From positions 66,921,758 through 66,985,757 of the forward strand of contig CM017557.1 of NCBI GenBank assembly GCA_007844125.1: a stretch of DNA of 64,000 nucleotides, written 5' to 3'. The position numbers and the translations under genes are program-made. Of this stretch, positions 32,901 through 62,984 are shown piece by piece. Each line of letters opens with the position of its first letter. Position 1 is the stretch's first letter. The DNA comes from Sinonovacula constricta (lineage: Eukaryota; Mollusca; Bivalvia; Cardiida; Solecurtidae). Below the pieces are notes generated by a model. That model made no database searches. It had not been told where the DNA came from and saw only the letters and a program-made list of their open reading frames with translations.

Positions 32901-35900
32901 ACCAGGGACTGCAAGTATGAGAGTCGAGCACACTAACAACTTGACCAGACAGGCAGATACTATGTATTGCAGTAGATAAATTCTTTTCTTTTGTTTAACT
33001 TGACTCAGAATGTTTACACCAATCTGAAAAAAAACATATGTCCACGTAGTTCCTTTTTAACCTTACTCTGCTATTGATAGAATAGATTTTACTGATGTAA
33101 AGGCAGAATGAAGACCAGGTTTGGGTTAACGTCATGCACAAATTAAAGTGATACAAGCCTTCTTATCAATCTTGCTTTAAAATTTTGAAATATGACCCTA
33201 TGGCAGATAAAAATGTTAAATTATCAAGTGATATGAATACTTTCAATGGTGTAATGTCAGTTAACACATAAATTGTTCTATTATTTCCTCATGTTCCCAT
33301 ATGGGATCAAATGTCTAAGTCACTATATTAGTCGGCATTAGGCTACTCCTTTAAATTGGAACTAGAGGATAATTAAAAACAACTTGATAATCAAGAAAAA
33401 ATTTACCGCTGCAGATGGGAAATGAACCCCAGGTCTCTTGATTGAAGGTTAAAAATGGAAGATATGTTGTTACTGTAAAGTGTTAGTGTGCTTAATCACT
33501 GCGGGGAATTAAATTTATCATGATGTTCTATTTATTTTTATAATAAGAATTATTAATATTGTGTTAAACTTACTCTGTCAGCAAGTTTCTCAGCATCAGA
33601 AACAAGGGAAATAATCTGACCAATTGTTACTGGTGGGGTTTGAGGGACTGTTGGTGTTATTCGGCCTTCAACAACTTGACCACCAGGTGGCAGAGTCTCT
33701 CCACCATTCATTGGTCGTTCTGGCTTGGGCTTTACTTCTGGGATAAAATCTTGTCTATCTGTGATCTGATGCATAAAAAGAAAAGATTTCATCTATAATA
33801 TATTTAAACCTGAGCATCTGTTCACAATCCATTTCCGATCACAGCTTGACGTAGGAGGTGCTGGAGGTGCACTTGGAGTAGGAAATAATCGTGAACTTGT
33901 AAATCCTTTGCTTAGCCACTCACTGAGTGGGTTTGAGTCTCATTCTGGGTGCAGGACTTAATGTGGGAAGGACTTCCAGCTGACCTGCCATGTGGCAGTG
34001 GTTCTACCCAGACATTTGCCTGGGGTCTTAATACACCAAATTAGCTGGATGTTTCTATAATGACCATAACTGGTTGCTGTGAGGTACTGTGAAAGCATTT
34101 TATTTCGTGGGGCAGAAATTTCGTTGTTTGAAGAGGACTGGCATATTCGTGGGTACTTGATTTCGTGGTTTGCCCTACCCATGAAAATAAAAAAATACCT
34201 TCGATTTTTGACAGGTGCGAAACTGAGGCCTAACACTGAAACAGAGTCAATTGCGAAACTACGGATTAGCGAGTGACTCTGCCTATTGTCTTACGTTACG
34301 CCTGGTGATACTGATCCACGGCAGCCGGTCAATGTTTTCACAGCCGAGTCTCATCAGACGACTTTTATGACACCTGTTAATTAGCGTGTCATTTAAGAGA
34401 TTATATTCATAAAGATGTTAGGGGTGCGGGTTCTTTTTAGGGTCTAATTTAACGAAGCCATTGACTGTCAATTAACGCCAATTAGCGTACTATGCAAACT
34501 GACACAAAACAGACCCTTGAGTAAACACCCTACACCTATAAAGTTAAAAGTGCTCGTGTATGTATTACAGTATAAAATTACTTAGCATAGATCGTTTTTT
34601 ATGATTAAATGGCTTATGTTCGTAAACATGTTTTATCGTTTTATGTCAATACAATGTAAATAAAGTGTGGTGAAATCGTCTGTTTGTTTGAGCTTTATGT
34701 CCTGTTTAGTAAAAATATGTTGACATGAATTACAAGAAAAACTAGCATTCAAAAGTCTAACCGAGGGGATTTTATATCGTTGGTACTTAAATTCGTGGAT
34801 TTACTTGCCCACGAATTCCACGAAATTAAATGCCCCACGAAATAAAATGCTTTCACAGTATTTCAAAAACCAAAACAAATCGCTATCCCCAAGGTTAAAT
34901 ATTATTTCTCTATTTCTTGGGTTTTGTGATACAAAACACAAGACACAATTAAGTTTATACTAGTGGTGTTTATTTTGAGTGAAGGACGACCCCAGACAAA
35001 TGTCTGCATAGAACCAAGTGCACACTGCAAATCAGCTTGAAGATCTCCCCACAGGAAGTTCTGCCCATACCAGGACATGAATTTAAGTCTGTGACTCTAA
35101 CTGCTATATGTGCTCATATTTGTGTCAAATTAAAAAATTCAATAATTGTGTTTACTACCAATATTACAGAACAGAAGTGAAAACATGGATGAAAACAACA
35201 CCAAGCTAAAATAGACAGGAAAACATACATGTTCTTTGTAAGCCTCGGTGAGCCAGGTTGAGTATCTCATTACCATCTGAAGGTTGAGCTTCCAAAACCT
35301 GTGACACAGGGGTGTCAGGTAGACCTCATCCTCCCAGCACCGACATAGACTCTGCCACAGAGAGTATGTGCCATGTAGCTGGAACTGGCTGGTGTCTGAA
35401 ATAAATTCATGAAATAGGCTGGTTCTAAAATAAATTCATGGAACTGGCTGGTATCAAAAATAAACTTATGGAAACGGTGGATGTCTAAAATCATGGAACT
35501 GGCTGATGTCTAAAATAAATTCATCAAATAGGCTGTTTCTTAAATAAATTTATGGAACTGGTTAGTTTTTAAAACAAATTCTTCATCTAAATGCTGAAAC
35601 TGAATGTTCAAAACTAGAATATGAAAATGCCATGAGTGTGAGATTAACCTATAACTGATCAGGCAGTGATCGAACAAAAACATGTAAAGATATAGTCAAA
35701 AAATCACTTTATAAATATAGCATAAAGGTTGTACTGGATGATTCACCTTTATTATGTGCTTTTTTTTTGTTACAGGATGAAATTAATACTATACGAAATG
35801 ATAGTAACAACATACCTGCAGCCCTGTTGAAAGCATTGAAGAGAGATGATTCAAAATTTCCAGCTATCTCCTGAAATCTAGAGGCAAAACTAACCTTAAA

Positions 35901-38900
35901 ACCTTATATATAGTACAAATTACACATAACAAGTATATCTAATAGAGCAACACAGACAAAACAAATGTTGAATTTGGTGCAACAAATATCATGAAATAAA
36001 GGTTCAAAATGAGAATGATTAAAAACAACCTTATTTATATACTACTTGAAATGGTTGTTAAATATTATAAAGGGTTGGTAAATATCATAAAGGGTTGTTA
36101 AATATTATAATATATATATTAAACAATACCTGATCTGGAAATAGACTGGGAGACTCCATTTGTTGATGAAGGTCTGGTAGCTAGGGTGATCTCGGAGCCG
36201 CTTCACACTTGCCAGCGACCCACACTGGCTCTCAAACTCATTCAAGAACTGCATACTGATTAGGTATTTCTGGATTATATAAACACACCTCATGGCATCA
36301 ATACATGGTGATATGATACATATTCATCCATTACGACATGAAGTTTTGTAGTTGCATGACTGCATGATTTAATCTTTTTTCTTAAACTTATAGTTTACTT
36401 GGCAAAAAAATGTAATCTACAGATTTGCATACATTAGGTGATTTAGTGAATTATCATTTGTTTATAGTGAAGTTTAATAAAACACAAGTGACAAAACAAT
36501 TTTCTTCAATTTTCTTCAAGCTATAGTACATTTCAGTACATTTAAGTAAATTTCATAAAATGAGAAACATCAAGGATTTTCTAACACATACAGCATGAAA
36601 GATGTTGGGATTTCCTGGTGCGAAGATTGAGCTTGTGTTCCTCTCTATGTTACTGACAACTTCAGGCCAAACTGCATTCACAATGAAATCATAACCTCGG
36701 ACAACATCTGATGAGCTAAAATTGTAATAACATGAGTAAACATTATATAGTTACATGAATTTTGTACCCTTAATTTATTTTCATAATTGACTTAAAACGT
36801 GTCATAAGTGTCATAAAGATGGAAATATAGGCAAGAACAATAAACTGTAACAATTCTATACTAACTTCAGTCTAGAAATAAATCACAAGATTTTATCAAC
36901 CTTTTCAAGAAAGAAATACTTGTATAGGATATCAAGAAAGAAATTATCAAAAAAAATCTTCAGTTTTGGTTATATTGGCGACATATAGATATTATCAAGA
37001 AGAACTCAAGACAAATGTCTGGATAACACTACTAGCAATCAGCAAGTCAGTTGGAGGAAGTTCCCTCATGAAAGTTCTTGCCCAGACTGGTACCTGAAGC
37101 CAAGCATTAGGGGCTGAGGACTTTTAGCCCTAGATTTAAATGTTGAACGATACCTAAATGTTTGAGTGGGAAGTCTCTGGAAAATTAATGTATTTAAACA
37201 TAAATGTTTTTGTTTTTTTCCAATCTATACTTTGAGGTGCATATGAAGTAACATCATAATGATGCACAAGAGATGTTTTTAGAACACATGTGTCCTCCTT
37301 ACTACCTGTAGCACCCACTCACGCCAAAACCAAAAATTAAAATCAGGTTCATGAAAATGACCATTGCTCTACTTATCCCAAACAAATAGTGGCCATCTAA
37401 CTCATCATGATCAATGTCCCTACCAAGTTTGATGATTCTGTGCTCATGCATTCTCTAGATAGTGAATGGAAACAAAGTCATCTACTGACTGATTGACGGA
37501 CCCTGGTTGACTGCAAAACAATATGGGCCCTCATCTCTGAAGTGGGACATAATAATTAGGTAAAAGATCAGATATTATAAGACAGCTAAAAGGTAAAAGA
37601 GAGTTGGCTTTTTGTTACTTACCCAGAAGACAATCCACCAGTGACATCTGTGAGGACCTTACAATGTTCTGGTATAAACTGGAGAACTTTGTCATACATC
37701 CCCTTAAGGCCAAAATGGTTAGTCTTGATGAACTGTTCAGTGATGACCTGGAGTAGAGAAATAGGTCTCTTTAAGCTATAATTTTTTAAAAATTAATTGT
37801 ATTAAAGAAGGTAATGTATTAAAGAAGTCAATAACTATTTAATATGTATTTTTGTATAAAACTAACTGACATCTTTCTAGATAGAAGTTACAGAAAGATG
37901 AAAGAAGAACCCAATAATAGTAAGGTTTTTACAAACTCTGCTTTTTTTTACAGATTAATGGCAAACCATCTTCACATAAAGTTGTTTGTCTAGATTAGGA
38001 TCTTGCTTTATGCTGGATCAAAGGATGCTTGGATTAAGATGAAATTTTATCACATGATCCCTATTGTTTTTAATTCCATACACCCATTACATATTTTGTT
38101 ATATTACACTAATGAAATACAGCTTTTTGACTGAGGATATCATCATAATGCAGAAGGTCTCCTACCACTATTTTATCTAGTATTGTTGTTAAACTTTCGA
38201 AAAATTGTATATTGGTGACTTTTAATCATGTGAAAGGAAGATTTTTAAATGACAACTTGTGTCAAATCTGTTATGTCTCTTCTATACTAAAGAATGGATA
38301 ATCTTGCACATCACAAACACTATTCAGGAATTATACTGCCTTGGCAAATAGTGTCGATCCAGACTTACCAGCTCCTGTATCTATTTTGGTAGTTATTTTT
38401 GCAAGTACATGTAACTGTCTGAAAACACACAGACATTAGTGTGGCCAATTATTATATGTAGACAATACGAGTTAATTTTACATGATGTGGCACTCACCTC
38501 TGCCATGTATGGACTGACAATGTGCTGTCTGTAGAGATTCTCTGCATCCCTTATCTTGTCAATTAGAGCATATGTCCTTAGACACTGTCGCAGGATGTTG
38601 GAGTTGCCTGTATCAAGTCCTTCCAGAAAAGATCCTTCCAAACTGTATTGTAGGGTGGTAGTAATGTTTGCTATCCTCTGCAATGATAAAAAAAAAAAAT
38701 AATCTTTATTATGCTCTGTTCCCTGGCTTCGAATGTACAGGGACTTTACTCTAACTATTAGAAAACTACATTCTAACCTCCTTTGTGAGTAGGTATTTGG
38801 TATATTATAATTGCTGAAAACTTAAGATTTCTCTATTCTAAAACTTTTGAAAAACACTTAAGACTAAAATTTGCGCATAAAATGGAATCTAATCGATTGA

Positions 38901-45705: not shown

Positions 45706-48700
45706 ATGGATTCTTTCAGAGACAGCAAAAATAACAAAAAGAGAAGAATTGTAGATGGAAAAACCAATAAACAGCACATTGTGAAGAGGACAAAAATACC
45801 CAAAGATGAGGCTGACTCCAGTTCAGATTATGATAATAACTCAGCACTGTTTGAAACAATGAAACAAAATGTGACTAATAAAAAGCACAACAAAAACATT
45901 ACTAATAAATCAACACAGAATTTGACTGATGCATCTGAATCAGACAAGCTAAAAAGCAGCCTTTCAGAATCAGAACCGTCGGAGGAGGAAAGCTTCAATT
46001 CTGTCTCCCAGAATCTCTCTCAAGACAAGTACACAAAAAGATTAAAAGTCCTTAAAAAGGCAAATACAGACACAAAAGATTACCATAATTCAGATCTTAA
46101 ACGTATTGACAGTTCTAAAGGTTCAGATAAACATAAACTTAAAAGTTCTAAGGAAAGATCAAGAAAAGTAATGGAGGATAAAAGGGTAATAAATGAGGAT
46201 TCTGATCATTCAAGTGATGCAGAAGAACTGCCTGAATGGGATGATGTAGAGAGTGATGATGGCTTAGAGGAGGATAACAGTGAGATGGATGAGGCAGAAG
46301 AGGGAAAAAATGATGATGAGGCAGATAAAGATGATGATGAGGAAGATGAGGACAACACAGAGGGGATGAATCAGGCTAAAAGTGAAGATGATGAATATGT
46401 AAGTTTTGTAATAATTAGGCCACTATGCATATTTCTAATTTTATTTAATAATGGACTATTTTCACAAAGACATAATGCTGATAAAATGACTTAAGTACAT
46501 GTACTTGAGCATAGTTGTTAGGAAAACTGTTTTCTAAAGTTAAAAATATTAAGTTTAGATTATGTGAATAGTATTTAGTAATAGTAACAGAAATATTTTG
46601 TCTTCCGCATTCTTAAAATAAAGCTAAATTGTCATCATTAACTAGGTCAGGGACAGCCTATAAACATTTAATTATTAACAGGAAACCCTAAAAACTAGCA
46701 ATTTAAAAAAACATGACAAAGGCACATTTTGTTGAACAATTAGTTATGATAACATGATGATTGCATATAGTAAAGTAACTAGTGCTTATCTTATAAACTG
46801 TATTATTAAGTCTGAATTATGTCCGCCTTTACCGATATATATATATATAATTATATATATATATATGTTGATGAAATTCTTAAATGTTAAATTTTAACAA
46901 CAAGCAAAAAGTTACATTTCGGCTGCTAGATTAAAATACCACAAATTTAGTGCAATTCATGTTCCATACAGCTATTTTTGAATACAGTAACATATGATAT
47001 GAAGTTAATTATATTTGAACATTTACATTTCAGGCAGCTATCAAGAGAGGTATGTACATTTATTTTCTTGTATACACTGTATTTATTCCTTCATACCAGA
47101 TACTAAAAATCAATGGCCTATGACATAACTTTAATATATTAATATTTAAATTTCAATATGAAATTAATGGAATAGCCTTGATATATATCTTAAGGTGGTT
47201 ATTTGGAATCCTCAGTCATTGCACAGTTTCACCTTCCACCTGGGCACGCTTTTTGGCTGTATAAACCATTATGAATGCCCAGTTATGTTTTTAAAGTTTT
47301 AAAGTTCATTACATAATTTTAACTATTACAAACTACTTTTAATGCATGTAAGAAGTAGACTGTTTTACTGTTGTTGTTTTTAATTGCAAAATGGAAAGTG
47401 TAGATATTTTTTTTTTTTGCCAATTCCGAAAATTCCCAAAATAAGACCATGTATTTGTAGATTACTCAAAATTACATTTTTTTTTATTTCTTACAGAATT
47501 AGCAGACATGCCTTTAGAGGATCTCATGAAATTGAAGGAAAGACTTGGTCTCAAAGTGTAAGTAAAAGGCTGCTGACCTATATCTAGCATTTTATCTTTA
47601 TAAGTCTGACTGATTAAACATCAATTTATGCTAGTCTAACAGTTTTAACATCAATTTAAGCAAGTTTGAATGATTTAATTTCAATTTAAACAAGTCTGAC
47701 TGATTTAACATTAATTTAAGCAAGTTTGAATGATTTAATTTCAATTTAAACAAGTCTGACTGATTTAACATTAATTTAAGCAAGTTTGACTGATTTAACA
47801 TCAATTTAAGTAAGTTTGACTGATTTAACATCAATTTAAGCAGGTCTGACTATGGTAATTTAACATCAATTTAATCAAATCTGACTGATTAAACTTCACT
47901 TTAAGCCAGCCTGACTAATTTAACATCAATTTAATCAAGTATCAATATCCCATTTTTATATATTTGTACCTACAATGGCATAAATAATGGACATGTACTT
48001 CAAATGTAATTGAAAGTATGTTGTTTTTTTTTTACATTTTCCTTACATGGTCTAGTAATTTAAATAAAATATTTTCCATTGGAGCATTATAGGTGACAGA
48101 CATTTAATATGGTATTCATAAAGATAAGCTTATTGCCAATTACAAACTAAAATTTAATGGTTGAACAAGTATGAACCAATGCCTTTGATGGCTAGTATAA
48201 AGTACCATACTAAGATTAGTTGAACATTCAATTGTTGTGTTTGTATAAAAGCTTCTTTTCGACAAAAATATTCTAGTGGCTGTTTGAGATGAATTAAGTT
48301 TTCTTGCAGATTCAACAAAATTATGCATGGCGATAAATTTGTGGAGAAACCCAAACAGAGAGTCTTCAAAAGGGTCAACAAAAACAGGTAATTTTTTATA
48401 CCCTTAAAGCATACAGACACAGCTTTTTAGCTCACCTGAGCTTATGCCCAGAATGAGCTCGTGTGATTGTCCACCGTCCAGTGCCATGAGTCTGTCAACA
48501 TTTTCAAACAACATCTCCTCTGAAACCACTGGGCCAAATTCAGACAAACTTTCGCAGAAGCTTACCATAAGCAGACACAGCAAAAAAACATGGCTACTCA
48601 GTGCGTGCCTATTTCCATATAAGGCTATATAGGAAAACCTAGAAAATCTTCTTGTCAGAAGCTACAAGAGCTAGAACCTTGATATTTAGTATACAAGTTC

Positions 48701-51700
48701 TGTATCAAGATTGTTCAAAGAAATTCGATTCATCAAAAAAACATGGCCACCAGGGGCGCAGCCATTTTCACTACATGGCTGTATGTGAAAACTTTGAAAA
48801 TTTTCTTGTCAAAAACCACAAGAGCTAGAGCTTTGATATTTGGTTTGTGTATTCCTTTGGTGGCATTGTATCAAGATTTTTCAAAGAATTCTGATCTGTC
48901 AAAAAAGCATAACCAGCAGCGCTAAACATTGACGGCACTCAGGTGAGGAAAAGAGGGCCATCATGGCCCTAATGTTTTTTTACTTCGTCATCATCAGCTG
49001 AGTCGCCATCCGCTTTTAGGTGCTCCAAACCATTTACAACTCAGTTCACCTTCAGGATGGTGCAGGTAGAGTGACCAGCCTCTACCCTGTCTAGGTTCCC
49101 TTTCATCCTTTTAGCATCACAGCAGCCAGAGCCAACATGATGCTCCCTTGACACAGTTCCCAAGAGCTTGGGCTGCAGCCTTTCGAAGCTTGCCTTTGAC
49201 TCCCAATGCTTTGAACATCTTCCTTATGACTTGAATCCTCTGATTCCATCCTCCACTTGAAGGACCCACGTCTTACAGCCATTTTGTCTACATGTTTCTA
49301 AAACAGAATACATTACAGCTTTCCAATGTATATGTTATATTTAAATTAATATCATGCATCTCTTAGAAGCCTGAATTTATTAAATTTCTTCCCTAGTTTT
49401 CGATCATTTTGAAGTCTTGAAATTGTGCTGTTTTTTTTTTTACAATTGTGGCTTAACTGAAAAATTAGCATTTGTCACTGAAAATTGTTATATGTTTTTC
49501 ATAACCAGTATAATAAATGAATTTTTCTTATGACCTCACACATGGGGGTCACTTGAATAATTCAACTAACAACATTTCAACCTGGCCCTTTTTCTCTACA
49601 CACAGTCATGGTATTAAATCACAAATATCATATAATTTATGTTGTTTCCTCAGGGACAAAAATAGTTTTTAAACACTTTTCATGCTATGATCTGTAAAGA
49701 CAATATAAGATGTAAATTACCGGTAATGTATTTAATGGGCTTCAGTATGCTGAGAGAAGTCCTGGGTGAAGAAATGCCAGAACAACTTGATATGTCTCGT
49801 TTGTTTTAGGTTGTCTTTTATCATGGCAAGCATTTGCATATTTCTGCACTTTGTTCATATATGTCAGTATAAATTTTGTGAAATATTTAGTGTTTATGAT
49901 GTTACTTCTGATATTCTGTATATGTAAATAGGATATAATAAATACATACAGAGTTGAAAAATCTTTTTTTGGAAAAAGTCAAATCAGTGAATGTGATTTT
50001 GCAAAGGGTTCACATAATAGTCAAATAGTGCAGCTTCTTTAAGGCAACTAGTTGTTCTACAGTTAACTACTGTAAATAAAAAACAATATATCAACCAGAT
50101 TGTTATGTTGAGTTTTCTCTGCTTTGTAGTTACAGATTTATATGAATATCATGGAAATATTGTGAATACTGTGACAAATATTTTCCTTCCAGACCAATGG
50201 AGATGTCATCAAAGCGACCCGTCCCAGTAATAAGGACTATCGTTGCACCAAAAGAAAAGGTTCGTTCAATTTGTCAGGTCTGTTTGTAGTATTTAATATT
50301 TGATTTAAGAAATTTTGTTAATGAATATAAGCTCTGATCCTTTCATTGTATTATTTACCCATGTAGTGTTTATTTATTGTGTTAAGGACAATGTGACCAA
50401 ATCTAGCTTTACACAGTGATCACAGTAAGAGGTTAGTGGGTTGGGGCAAGGTAGTGGGGGTGTTGTGGGGGTACTGCATGGTCTTACTCTGTATATCATT
50501 TTCATGATAATTGGCCAATTGTGTGTGTTTTTATTTAGGTGTAAGTAGGTGACAATTTATTGCACACTTAGGCTCATTTGTGATAGAATAAGTGCTAAAA
50601 ATAACAAAAACTAGTTTTGAACACCCTAACCTACCAGTTGAGTTGATGGGTGTATTGTCCAGCTTTGAAAACTGATTAGGGTATATTTTGTCGACCTAGA
50701 AAAATTGATGAGAGGCGCTTTGTCTACTTAAAAATAATACATCGGGGTGTTTCGTCCACCTAGTCTAAATAGGCAGGTGTTATGTCTGAGGGTGTTTGTC
50801 CAAATGCTGGTTAAAATACATTTTTGAAGTCAATAGATAACTACTAAGAAGTTAAGTACCCTGTTGCCAGATCTCTAATCCTGTGTTACCTGTGTAACAG
50901 GTAAGAAGAGACCCCAAAAAATAACTATCAAGAAGTTAATTACATGTTGCCTGGTCTCTAATCCTGTGTTACCTGTGTAACAGGTGCATAGAGACCCTTA
51001 GAGGTACCTATTGAGAAGTTAATTACATGTTGCCTGGTCTCTAATCCTGTGTTAACTGTGTAACAGGTACATAGAGACCCTTAGAGGTAACTATTGAGAA
51101 GTTAATTACATGTTGCCTGGTCTCTAATCCTGTGTTAACTGTGTTACAGGTACATAGAGACCCTTAGAGGTAACTATTGAGAAGTTAATTACATGTTGCC
51201 TGGTCTCTAATCCTGTGTTAACTGTGTTACAGGTACATAGAGACCCTTAGAGGTAACTATTGAGAAGTTAATTACATGTTGCCTGGTCTCTAATCCTGTG
51301 TTACCTGTGTTACAGGTGCATAGAGACCCTTAGAGGTAACTATTGAGAAGTTAATTACATGTTGCCTGGTCTCTAATCCTGTGTTACCTGTGTTACAGGT
51401 ACATAGAGACCCTTAGAGGTAACTATTGAGAAGTTAATTACATGTTGCCTGGTCTCTAATCCTGTGTTACCTGTGTTACAGGTGCGTAGAGACCCCAGGT
51501 TTGATGACCTGTCTGGAGAGTACAGTGACCAGCACTTCAACAGGAACTACGCCTTCTTGTCAGACATCAAGGCCCGAGAGAAACAGGTGAGTGTTTTGAC
51601 AAAATATTCTCAGATCTTCCCATTATACTTGTAGTAATCTCTCTTTCATACAAAAACACCTCATTCCATACTTTGATACATAATTGCATGTACATATATG

Positions 51701-54334
51701 TACAAATAGTATGCATACTTGCCAGGCTACTCCATTTACTTTTGTTTGATTTGAAATGCTATTTATTAGTTTCAGATAAAATTATAAATTATGTTTACCA
51801 GAAAAAAATAAAAATAAAACTATTAGTTGAACTTTTAGGGTATTTCAAAATCAAAATAAATTTTACTAAGAGAACATAGGAAAGTTGTGAAAATCAATTT
51901 TGAAATAAGAAAAATTGAGCTCTGACTTTTTATTAGGAGTCTTGTATTTTGATGTGCCAAATACTATATGTAAAGGCCACTATCTCACTGGGCTCCAATT
52001 GTTAGTGACAAATTGTGTTTGCCATTCTATCTTTGATCTGTCTCAGGGGGTCGCAGTATCTTAGCTTGGGTTGCAAAACTTTGCTTTCTTGTTGTATAAA
52101 TTTTAAGCATGTTCAACAAAAATTTGGCAAACAGCGCTAACTGTATTCAAATAATTATCTAAGATTTTTCACAATAATCAGTTGATGGTTTAACAACTGT
52201 AACTTTTTTAGAAAATTTTAAACAAAAACTTTTATGTGTATGTTTTTGCAATCTGCGGAATTTGGTGTTATTTTATGTTAAAGTTGCTTTTGTGTGTGTG
52301 GTTTCAGCTTATCCAGAAGAAACTGAACAAGACCATGGATGAAGATAAGAAGAAGCAACTGGAACAGTTATTGAAGAGAAAGGCTAGTATCCTATACTTT
52401 CTTGCCAACAGAACACATTCAGTTGTTCTTTTCACCTCTTTTTGCTGATCTTTTTTTATTTTTTTAATTAGTTTACTTCTAACAGAAAAAAGAAAAGGAC
52501 TTTTTTTCAATGATAGGACTGGTTGGGTCAACAAATAATATTAAAATTCAACAAATAAATTGTCAACAGTGCAACTGTATAGTTTGTGTCATTTATTTTT
52601 ATGGAGCTGTGTAAGAACTAGTGGTAAGTTGTTATACGAGCCAGACTCATTGATTTTCAGGTTAATAGTAAAAACAGCACTTTTCACTTTATTGCACATT
52701 GTTCAAAGTTGATCTTTCTGGATCATTATATTGTACACATTGGCTGCAGAAACACAATTTTATATCCTGACAAAATGATCTTGAAACAGCTTGAGTGCCA
52801 GTTATGAAATGGAGCGAAGTACTGTTGTATGACATTATGTCAGTATTAACATGTATATGCAGCATATCATTATAATGTCATATAAAACTTACTACTATGA
52901 GTGTAAGCTAAAATCACCTCCACACTTGATGGATATTTTTTGATGTGATGTGGAATTACCAGACTCATTTTCAGAAAGATATTACTTGGAAAGTTGTTTT
53001 GATGGTAAAAATAAGAGATGTTTTTTTTATGATTGGGTATGGATATTAAAACATTTACAATCTCTGCCATTTCAAATTTTAGATAAAATTATTAAATTTT
53101 GATTTCAATAAAAGAAGTGTTATTATTTTATATTTACGTTGGCTTGACAACATTATCACTGAGTTATCAGCATTTTTTTTTTATCATGTTCAGGAACAAG
53201 AGGAAAAAGCAGAAAAACATAAGAAAAAGAAACAAGAACTAGAGTCAACATGGAAGCAAAAGGAGAAGGCTTTAATAAAGGAGGGCAAGACACCTTACTT
53301 CCTCAAGAAAGGTAAGCACAACTCCTGCATAATTTGTAAAGCTATTCTTAGCCAACAGTTGTTGTAAAAATTAAGTCGTGTAAATGTTGGGAAAAAAGTT
53401 AATATCAACAAATTAATCTTGTCACAGTAATGCTATAGAAAGTTTAACTTCATCTAAATGGCGCATAAATAATCGTTCTGTAAGAATAAAATATGATTGG
53501 ATAAATTGAAGAAAAGTTTATGGTATATGTATGGCCTAAATTTATAAACCAACCAAAAACAAGAAAAATATCAGTTCGTAAAGTATGATATGAAAAACAC
53601 CAGTTACAATTAGGGATCATAAAAAGAAAATATGTTAGATCTGATGTCATAGTTTTCTTCTACAATCCTTATATTAAAACGGTTTATTTTAAATGTGCAC
53701 ATTTCTTACTGTAAATAATTAGTGACTACAATTGAATGATTTTTGCTTTGTATGGTCATAACAAAATATATATTTTTTTAATTTCTGTTTTTCAAGGTAT
53801 TCCTCTGACAATTTTGAAGTACACTTAATTGGCAAGTTTTTGTTTATTTATTGGGTTTATAGTCCCACCAACAGTTTTTCAGTTATCTGGAGACGATGTC
53901 CACTTGAAGAAGATATAGTGCTGCCTTCACTGTGTATAGTATGCTGTGAATACCTGGCATGATACCACACCCAGTCACATTATCCTGACACCGGGCCAAC
54001 CTGTCGTCGAACTACCCTTTTATTTGCTTGAGCGTTTCCCACTACCATTTTTTACAACTGATATGTCAAGGCCAGGCATCGAACCCAGGGCCTCCAGTAC
54101 CTGGAGTCAACGCTCTACCGATTGCGCTACCAGGTCCGGTGGCAAGTTTTTTCATTCTACTTATTATTGTTTGAATTTTAATTTATTCCAGCTGACAAGA
54201 AGAAGCTGGCCTTAGCTGAGAAGTACAAGGAGCTACAGAAGGCTGGTAAGATGGACCAATATCTGAGCAAGAAACGAAAGAAGAATGCACAGAAAGAGAG
54301 GAAAAAGCTGCCAAACCTACATACAAAATTCTAA
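45706..54334 (+). CDS. RRP36: Ribosomal RNA processing protein 36 (RRP36), complete, 9 coding exons
   Basis: Coding exons: 45706-46398, 47034-47049, 47497-47557, 48310-48387, 50193-50259, 51482-51586, 52308-52382, 53194-53311, 54192-54334. They total 1356 nt (451 aa plus stop) with frame closed throughout. RRP36 is a nucleolar factor of the SSU processome needed for early cleavages towards 18S rRNA. The conserved domain is residues 232-451: RELADMPLEDLMKLKERLG, RPMEMSSKRPVPVIRTIV, RRDPRFDDLSGEY (307-319), FLSDIKAREK, GKTPYFLKK and the basic end KYKELQKAGKMDQYLSKKRK. Residues 1-231, all in exon 1, are low-complexity: Lys/Ser-rich, then an Asp/Glu-rich stretch ending at DDEY; human RRP36 (about 259 aa) has a much shorter acidic segment. 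Odd points are a 16-nt second exon, exon 6 preceded by tandem copies of its own acceptor, and a probable GC-AG intron after exon 7. AATAAA occurs at 54334-54339 and 54366-54371. Confidence 0.95.
46838..46868. repeat. AT microsatellite in RRP36 intron 1
   Basis: Two ATATAT runs separated by AATT, forming a near-palindrome, about 165 bp upstream of the 16-nt microexon. Confidence 0.8.
47615..47945. repeat. 30-bp tandem repeat in RRP36 intron 3
   Basis: About ten units of the type GACTGATTTAACATCAATTT followed by AAGCAAGTTT repeat with a 30-bp period; part of the array alternates two variants, giving a 60-bp superperiod (47690-47770). It begins about 60 bp after exon 3. Because 30 is divisible by 3, the - strand stays open for 67 codons as a decapeptide repeat. 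I consider this non-coding. Confidence 0.88.
48428..48985 (-). repeat. TIR-bounded dispersed repeat, related ends to 20490 element, RRP36 intron 4
   Basis: The left end is AGCTCACCTGAGCTTATGCC. The right end is CACTCAGGTGAGGAAAAGAG then GGCCATCATGGCCCT. Between them are two diverged copies of a block with ACATGGCCACCAGGGGCGCA, TTTTCTTGTCAAAAACCACA and AGAGCTAGAGCTTTGATATT (near 48590-48730 and 48740-48905). Only the ends, not the interior, match 20490-21262. Confidence 0.7.
48986..49312. other. Unassigned GC-richer segment in RRP36 intron 4
   Basis: From GTCATCATCAGCTGAGTCGC to CAGCCATTTTGTCTACATG the sequence is markedly richer in GC than its surroundings. Short open frames occur on - (for example FKALGVKGKLRKAAAQALG) but none is continuous and I recognise no domain. 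A decayed retrotransposon or processed-gene relic is the likeliest explanation. Confidence 0.3.
50838..51499 (+). repeat. 83-bp tandem repeat spanning the RRP36 exon 6 acceptor, eight copies
   Basis: The word CTCTAATCCTGTGTTA starts at 50873, 50956, 51039, 51122, 51205, 51288, 51371 and 51454, exactly 83 bp apart each time. Every unit holds a branch-point-like TCTAATC, an AG acceptor 28 nt after the word's start, and a copy of the beginning of exon 6. The last unit supplies the true acceptor (exon 6 starts at 51482). Copies 3 to 7 are almost identical, so amplification is recent or homogenised. Confidence 0.95.
53842..54140 (-). mobile_element. Family B SINE, full length with perfect target-site duplication, RRP36 intron 8
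   Basis: The duplication GGCAAGTTTTT flanks it at 53831-53841 and 54141-54151. On - the head is ACCGGACCTGGTAGCGCAAT followed by CGGTAGAGCG (A box), and the B box is GGGTTCGATGCC. The 3' end is an AATAAATAAACAA-type tail. It is the best copy of the family here and sits about 50 bp upstream of the last RRP36 exon. Confidence 0.92.
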
Positions 54335-61725: not shown

Positions 61726-61727
61726 AA

Positions 61728-62948
61728 TGAGACCAGACCAACCACACCTGACCACATCCAGTCACAGGGTCATGAGACCAGACCAACCTCACCCAACTTA
61801 TCCAGTCACAGGGTCATGAGACCAGACCAACCACACCTGACCACATCCAGTCCCACGGTGATGAGACCAGACCAACCACACCTGACCACATCCAGTCACA
61901 GGGTCATGAGACCAGACCAACCTCACCCAACTTATCCAGTCACAGAGTCATGAGACCAGACCAACCACACCTGACCACATCCAGTCACAGGGTCATGAGA
62001 CCAGACCAACCACACCTGACCACATCCAGTCCCACGGTCATGAGACCAGACCAACCACACCTGACCACATCCAGTCACAGGGTCATGAGACCAGACCAAC
62101 CTCACCCAACTTATCCAGTCACAGGGTCATGAGACCAGACCAACCACACCTGACCACATCCAGTCACAGGGTGATGAGACCAGACCAACCACACCTGACC
62201 ACATCCAGTCACAGGGTCATGAGACCAGACCAACCACACCTGACCACATCCAGTCACAGGGTCATGAGACCAGACCAACCACACCTGACCACATCCAGTC
62301 ACAGGGTGATGAGACCAGACCAACCACACCTGACCACATCCAGTCACAGGGTGATGAGACCAGACCAACCACACCTGACCACATCCAGTCACAGGGTCAT
62401 GAGACCAGACCAACCACACCTGACCACATCCAGTCCCACGGTCATGAGACCAGACCAACCACACCTGACCACATCCTGTCACAGGGTCATGAGACCAGAC
62501 CAACCTCACCCAACTTATCCAGTCACAGGGTGATGAGACCAGACCAACCACACCTGACCACATCCAGTCACAGGGTCATGAGACCAGACCAACCACACCT
62601 GACCACATCCAGTCACAGGGTCATGAGACCAGACCAACCACATCAGACCACATGCAGTCACAGGGTCATGAGACCAGACCAACCTCACCCAACTTATCCA
62701 GTCACAGTGTCATGAGACCAGACCAACCACACCTGACCACATCCAGTCACAGGGTCATGAGACCAGACCAATCACATTAGACCAAATCCAGTCACAGGGT
62801 CATGAGACCAGACCAACCACATCAGACCACATGCAGTCACAGGGTCATGAGACCAGACCAACCTCACCCAACGTATCCAGTCACAGAGTCATGAGACCAG
62901 ACCAACCACACCTGACAACATCCAGTCACAGGTTCATGAGACCAGACC
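61728..62948. repeat. 45-bp minisatellite, about 27 copies, with higher-order structure
   Basis: The unit is CATGAGACCAGACCAACCAC, then ACCTGACCACATCCAGTCAC, then AGGGT (45 bp). A 44-bp variant carrying CTCACCCAACTTATCC appears near 61786, 61921, 62100, 62500, 62683 and 62861; three of the five intervals are about 180 bp (four units). Other variants have CCCACGGT, GGTGATG or CATCAGACC. Open frames on both strands arise because 45 is divisible by 3. Confidence 0.97.
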
Positions 62949-62984
62949 ATAATGACAGGTGACAGAGATCCTGCAGGTTATGAT

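Follow-up and report, generated by a model that had tools for sequence, protein, structure and literature searches.

A mirage-like array of splice acceptors in front of RRP36 exon 6 in the bivalve Sinonovacula constricta

In the bivalve Sinonovacula constricta, the 3' end of intron 5 and the start of exon 6 of the gene RRP36 are present as eight tandem copies of an 83-bp unit, which place seven decoy acceptors ahead of the true one. The array lies at 50838..51495 on the forward strand of a 64,000-nucleotide stretch (GenBank assembly GCA_007844125.1, contig CM017557.1, positions 66,921,758 to 66,985,757 of the forward strand), which is called the window here and supplies all coordinates. We consider it likely that the array is for the most part a neutral intronic minisatellite of the kind named "mirage" in amphioxus, tolerated as the last acceptor wins and normal mRNA is still made.

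Results

The array was delimited by repeat finding and by comparison of its copies. Tandem Repeats Finder reported a period of 83, 7.9 copies, 95% matches, and a score of 1118 at 50838-51495, and the repeat unit crosses the real intron-exon boundary, including the splice signal, with 63 intronic and ∼15 exonic nucleotides. A preliminary description of this DNA had listed eight copies spaced by 83 bp, each with TCTAATC, an AG, and an exon start, and every boundary coordinate that it gave was confirmed. The motif TCTAATC begins at 50874, 50957, 51040, 51123, 51206, 51289, 51372, and 51455 (8 of its 10 occurrences on the forward strand of the window belong to the array), and ACAG/GT boundaries (the slash marks the splice boundary) follow in exact 83-nt steps, with AG/GT in all eight cases: at 50901 in copy 1 (50838..50920), where AG/GTAAGA is an acceptor abutting a strong donor-like site; at 50984, 51067, 51150, 51233, 51316, and 51399 in copies 2 to 7 (50921..51418, 83 nt each), which are decoys; and at 51482 in copy 8 (51419..51495), which carries the true acceptor. 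All of these copies lie on the forward strand.

The copies are not equally alike. Copies 4 and 5 are identical, and copies 6, 7, and 8 show no difference over their 63 intronic nucleotides; copy 8 differs from copies 6 and 7 at 6 and 7 positions, respectively, in the exon part only (20 positions compared, extending beyond the repeat into exon 6). The description of the acceptors as near-identical holds for copies 2 to 8 but does not extend to copy 1, the most diverged, which differs from copy 2 in 16 alignment columns, 2 of them gaps; its one extra base sits upstream of its AG, so that the spacing of the AGs is unaffected. Likewise, a single decoy exon part had been set against that of the true copy, and decoys 3, 4, 5, and 7 match this sequence, GTACATAGAGACCCTTAG, exactly, but decoys 2 and 6 carry GTGCATAGAGACCCTTAG and copy 1 carries GTAAGAAGAGACCCCAAA.

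The identity of the gene and of its true acceptor follows from a gene model, a profile match, and a database protein. The coding region of RRP36 (45706..54334, forward strand) comprises nine exons that encode 451 amino acids plus a stop, and the product matches PF06102 (RRP36) at 9.7e-50. Over residues 230-451, its best named relatives among the best 120 of 334 matches come from Ruditapes philippinarum (69% identity) and Mercenaria mercenaria (68%); Mercenaria is a venerid of the superorder Imparidentia. The database protein P0001 (source lgn, a tag that we take to denote assembled public sequencing runs) equals the nine-exon model at 451/451 residues and joins exon 5 to 51482. Because the genomic coding span is 8,629 bases and the contig behind P0001 only 1,683 bases, P0001 must come from spliced RNA, either directly or by way of a retrocopy, which indicates that a transcript using the last acceptor exists and agrees with the earlier placement of the exon 6 start at 51482. 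Gene model and copy comparison also concur with the earlier proposal that this exon is preceded by multiple copies of a complete 3' splice site. Exon 5 (50193..50259, forward strand) ends in phase 0, intron 5 is 1,222 nt long with its model donor at 50260, outside the array, and exon 6 (51482..51586, forward strand) begins with VRRDPRFDDLSG. Splice sites were scored with approximate matrices that are good for ranking only; by these, the donor of exon 5 (AAG/GTTCGT) scores lowest and that of exon 6 (CAG/GTGAGT) highest among the gene's eight donors.

The same scores bear on how the last acceptor is chosen. Acceptors 6, 7, and 8 score equally, at 5.11, and the earlier copies score 0.65 to 3.24; copies 1 to 5 may therefore lose on acceptor strength, but copies 6 and 7 cannot. 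Nor can the proximal intron separate acceptors 6, 7, and 8, whose 63 intronic bases are the same; the preliminary description, which gave a weaker statement of this identity, had assigned the choice to exonic signals or to surveillance of wrong products. Nearness to the exon 6 donor is a possible third guide: from acceptor 8 the exon measures 105 nt and ends at the gene's best-scoring donor (8.41), and the extended exons from copies 7 and 6 measure 188 and 271 nt, stops included. Exon sequence and nearness to this donor likely guide the choice, and exon definition appears the most likely selection rule, by analogy with other duplicated acceptors. When human beta-globin acceptors were duplicated in vitro, the distal site alone was spliced, very inefficiently, with upstream copies followed by 14, 55, or 205 nt of exon (PMC5389562), and in the human CBS ins68 duplication the distal copy is strongly preferred (PMC2630376). 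Some loss of splicing efficiency caused by the array is possible.

Joining exon 5 to a decoy leads to an early in-frame stop in all seven cases: joins to copies 2 to 7 read VHRDP-stop and the join to copy 1 reads VRRDPKK-stop, the stop being the 6th or 8th codon. Because all seven decoys give early stops, removal of such wrong joins by nonsense-mediated decay (NMD) would be expected. A protein search with the decoy product (310 amino acids) returned no decoy form among its 8 matches at E values up to 1e-10 (2,032 candidates); the sole match from this organism was full-length P0001. The major form is favored by decay, by assembly, and by the clustering of the searched database at 90% identity.

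A second array of acceptors, degenerate and on the reverse strand, lies in COG2, and RRP36 is therefore not a special case. Spliced alignment of two homologous proteins, P0122 (Mercenaria) and P0123, gave a COG2 model of 18 exons. Among the best 120 of 1,321 matches, the closest protein is 72% identical and comes from Mercenaria, and no COG2 transcript of this species appears. The array (35380..35581; repeat finding and alignment) consists of ∼7 copies of a 30-bp unit with 69% matches and ends 16 nt inside exon 12 (35229..35395, reverse strand), an exon placed from homologous proteins only, both of which give the acceptor at 35395, ATTTATTTCAG/ACACCAGCC. Echoes of the last unit, TTTATTTCAG/ACACCAGCCAGTTCC, occur farther upstream, where four units have an AG at the corresponding position and at least one has lost it. 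The boundaries read AG/AC or AG/AA. Read in the frame set by exon 11, each of the 16 AGs listed upstream (35599 to 35418) leads to a stop.

Repeats at the splice sites of RRP36 and COG2 (25 acceptors, 25 donors) were sought in the 700 intronic nucleotides closest to each site. Strong boundary repeats occur at 2 of the 25 acceptors (z scores of 14.5 and 11.5) and at none of the 25 donors; the next-best z scores are 3.9 and 2.6 for acceptors and at most 2.7 for donors. A placement test took the four Tandem Repeats Finder arrays of at least 100 bp within the span of the two genes and set them down at random. With no limit on coding nucleotides, at least two arrays cover an acceptor with P = 0.33; the version with a limit, which counts overlap with any exon edge, is considered below. 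We do not claim that arrays are enriched at splice acceptors.

Several further features of the two genes and the window were recorded. RRP36 intron 7 (52383-53193) appears to be of the GC-AG type, with the donor AAG/GCTAGT, as the model requires and in keeping with P0001. The mature exon 5-exon 6 junction (50259/51482) reads AAG/GTGCGT and has a donor score of 5.09 versus 1.28 for the original exon 5 donor, a possible re-splicing hazard. RRP36 intron 3 contains an 11-copy array of a 30-bp unit at 47602-47940, which begins 45 nt past the end of exon 3 and does not span the donor. In COG2, intron 9 may hold one diverged copy of the acceptor region of exon 10 (36270-36591, reverse strand; z score of 3.9, borderline). 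Finally, the array at 61727-62949 has 27 copies of a 45-bp unit, is also fitted with periods of 134 and 179, and contains open frames of up to 208 amino acids on the forward strand and 154 on the reverse; it may be a putative gene or a noncoding satellite.

Discussion

The history that would best account for the RRP36 array begins with a tandem duplication of 83 bp across the intron 5/exon 6 boundary in a heterodont bivalve. Unequal exchange or conversion would then have kept the copies alike and left an outer copy behind, as the copy pattern suggests: difference matrices show homogeneous inner copies and a diverged copy 1 at the edge, as tandem turnover usually leaves them; homogenized inner copies with excluded edge copies are also described for amphioxus BflGb6 (PMC3087553). 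Only the last acceptor adjoins the full 105-nt exon and its strong donor, which would yield normal mRNA by exon definition, as judged from other duplicated acceptors, and decoy joins, which run into an in-frame stop, would be removed by NMD. The array would thus be mainly tolerated rather than selected, with a possible cost in splicing efficiency.

Some observations weigh against this account of a tolerated, mostly neutral minisatellite. Splicing to 51482 is documented by a single transcript-derived protein, and the missing decoy product says little, because clustering at 90% identity and decay would both hide such products. The 27-nt core between branch point and AG contains none of the 16 columns in which copy 1 differs (post hoc hypergeometric P = 0.0008), a constancy beyond what drift alone would lead one to expect; the pattern, noticed in hindsight, is suggestive, and a short conversion tract would also yield it. 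Finally, 2 of the 4 long arrays in the two-gene span overlap an exon edge, and when random placement allows at most 20 coding nucleotides, P is 0.031 for at least two arrays reaching an exon edge, be it acceptor or donor.

Although unlikely in our judgment, the array could instead act as an error-correcting strip, in which a decoy join rebuilds a donor, the 83-nt units are removed stepwise or together, and copy 1 (CAG/GTAAGA), as a ratchet point, takes over from the weak donor of exon 5. Every one of the eight boundaries is AG/GT, and the signals of a small intron are present in every 83-nt unit. At copy 1, the rebuilt donor (AAG/GTAAGA) scores 7.03, above the 1.28 of the exon 5 donor (AAG/GTTCGT), by the approximate matrices under which the juxtaposed AG/GT of copy 1 itself scores 2.53 as an acceptor and 7.19 as a donor; moreover, copy 1 alone of the 434 AGGT sites on both strands of the window reaches an acceptor score of at least 2.53 with a donor score of at least 7.03 (thresholds set on copy 1 itself), and its branch-point-to-AG core is the same as that of copy 2. 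The donors rebuilt at copies 2 to 7, however, are weak, at 1.28 to 1.59, which equals or slightly exceeds the exon 5 donor. Recursive splicing is known for very long introns (PMC8758631) and RRP36 intron 5 has only 1,222 nt, direct splicing suffices and either route gives the same mRNA, and the COG2 array could not work by re-splicing, because its units have AG/AC or AG/AA and no AG/GT at the matching place. A faulty assembly or a wrong copy number is quite unlikely. Near-identical short repeats are prone to misassembly, as happened to one lancelet mirage in a genome draft (PMC3087553), and the count of eight could be off because copies 4 and 5 are indistinguishable and copies 6 and 7 almost so; but several copies have differences of their own at exact 83-nt spacing, and the COG2 array is a separate, degenerate case.

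Two further readings are less probable still. Regulated unproductive splicing, in which controlled use of decoys would send RRP36 mRNA to decay and so tune ribosome biogenesis, is very unlikely: the early stop in 7 of 7 decoys would suit it, but early stops are common in intron-derived sequence, copies 2 to 7 share one repeat and are not independent, and no decoy product was found in the protein search of 2,032 candidates, though decay would hide it. Highly improbable is a choice guided by structure, with hairpins over branch point and AG that mask the decoys and leave the last site free. In 7 of the 8 copies (copies 2 to 8), GGTCTCTA can pair with TAGAGACC as partial inverted repeats, and folding z scores are -3.10, -2.74, and -3.79 for copies 2, 4, and 8 and -8.12 for the array with exon 6 (20 shuffles). 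The true copy, however, folds as well as the decoys (-25.6 versus -13.5 to -27.0 kcal/mol), and 18.5% of 5,000 random positions reach an inverted-repeat score of at least 8; on these grounds hairpins were rejected as a means of telling the acceptors apart.

The preliminary description knew of no name for such an array, but tandem copies of intron-exon boundaries in amphioxus are called "mirages" (PMC3087553, PMC3902484). Lancelet cases are Adh3, the globins BflGb6 and BflGb9, TnC, and PGBD5, and the published mirages leave regular splicing undisturbed (PMC3087553, PMC3902484). The RRP36 array shares with them a tandem minisatellite, a real boundary within the unit, regular mRNA (one record), and homogenized inner beside diverged edge copies; as in BflGb6, the acceptor side is copied and the edge stands outside homogenization. 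It differs in its bivalve host, in its unit of 83 bp versus 150 to 160 bp (BflGb6) and 10 to 72 bp (Adh3), and in its eight copies versus 6 and 3 in two BflGb6 haplotypes. In humans, the variable number tandem repeat (VNTR) of ABCA7 intron 18 likewise has tandem 25-bp units that flank an exon and include its splice site, with single-unit retention and an effect of length on splicing measured (PMC5954066); unlike the RRP36 array, it lies on the donor side, its length varies among people, and alternative products are known. Human CBS offers two more analogues: 844_845ins68, which is one duplication only and is placed at a "donor" by a citing paper and at a 3' splice site by the title of Romano 2002, and a 31-bp VNTR, which lies at a donor and whose notation, c.1444_1467+7, spans an exon end. 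Intron gain by tandem duplication of AGGT-containing segments (PMC3443670) is alike in that an AG/GT at each unit boundary makes the 83-nt unit intron-like; in introns so gained, however, both splice sites lie in the copies, whereas the RRP36 intron preexists, its donor is outside the array, and no intron position is new. The juxtaposed AG/GT of copy 1 fits the motif of recursive splice sites, or ratchet points (PMC8758631), which are described for very long introns. A literature search limited to open-licence PMC papers found none on bivalve minisatellites at exon-intron boundaries or splice sites, which does not imply absence in print; as far as the literature covered goes, the name mirage is otherwise found for lancelets only, and the bivalve, and thus molluscan, case is new here, as is the degenerate acceptor array in the nearby COG2.

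If the array did correct its own splicing errors, tandem duplications with AG/GT boundaries would be inherently harmless, which would help to explain the persistence of mirages. Because acceptors 6, 7, and 8 have identical proximal introns, these three copies are a natural experiment: how often each is used would show what exon sequence and position contribute by themselves. Acceptor arrays are present in two genes, RRP36 and COG2, of one 64-kb window, in a mollusc.
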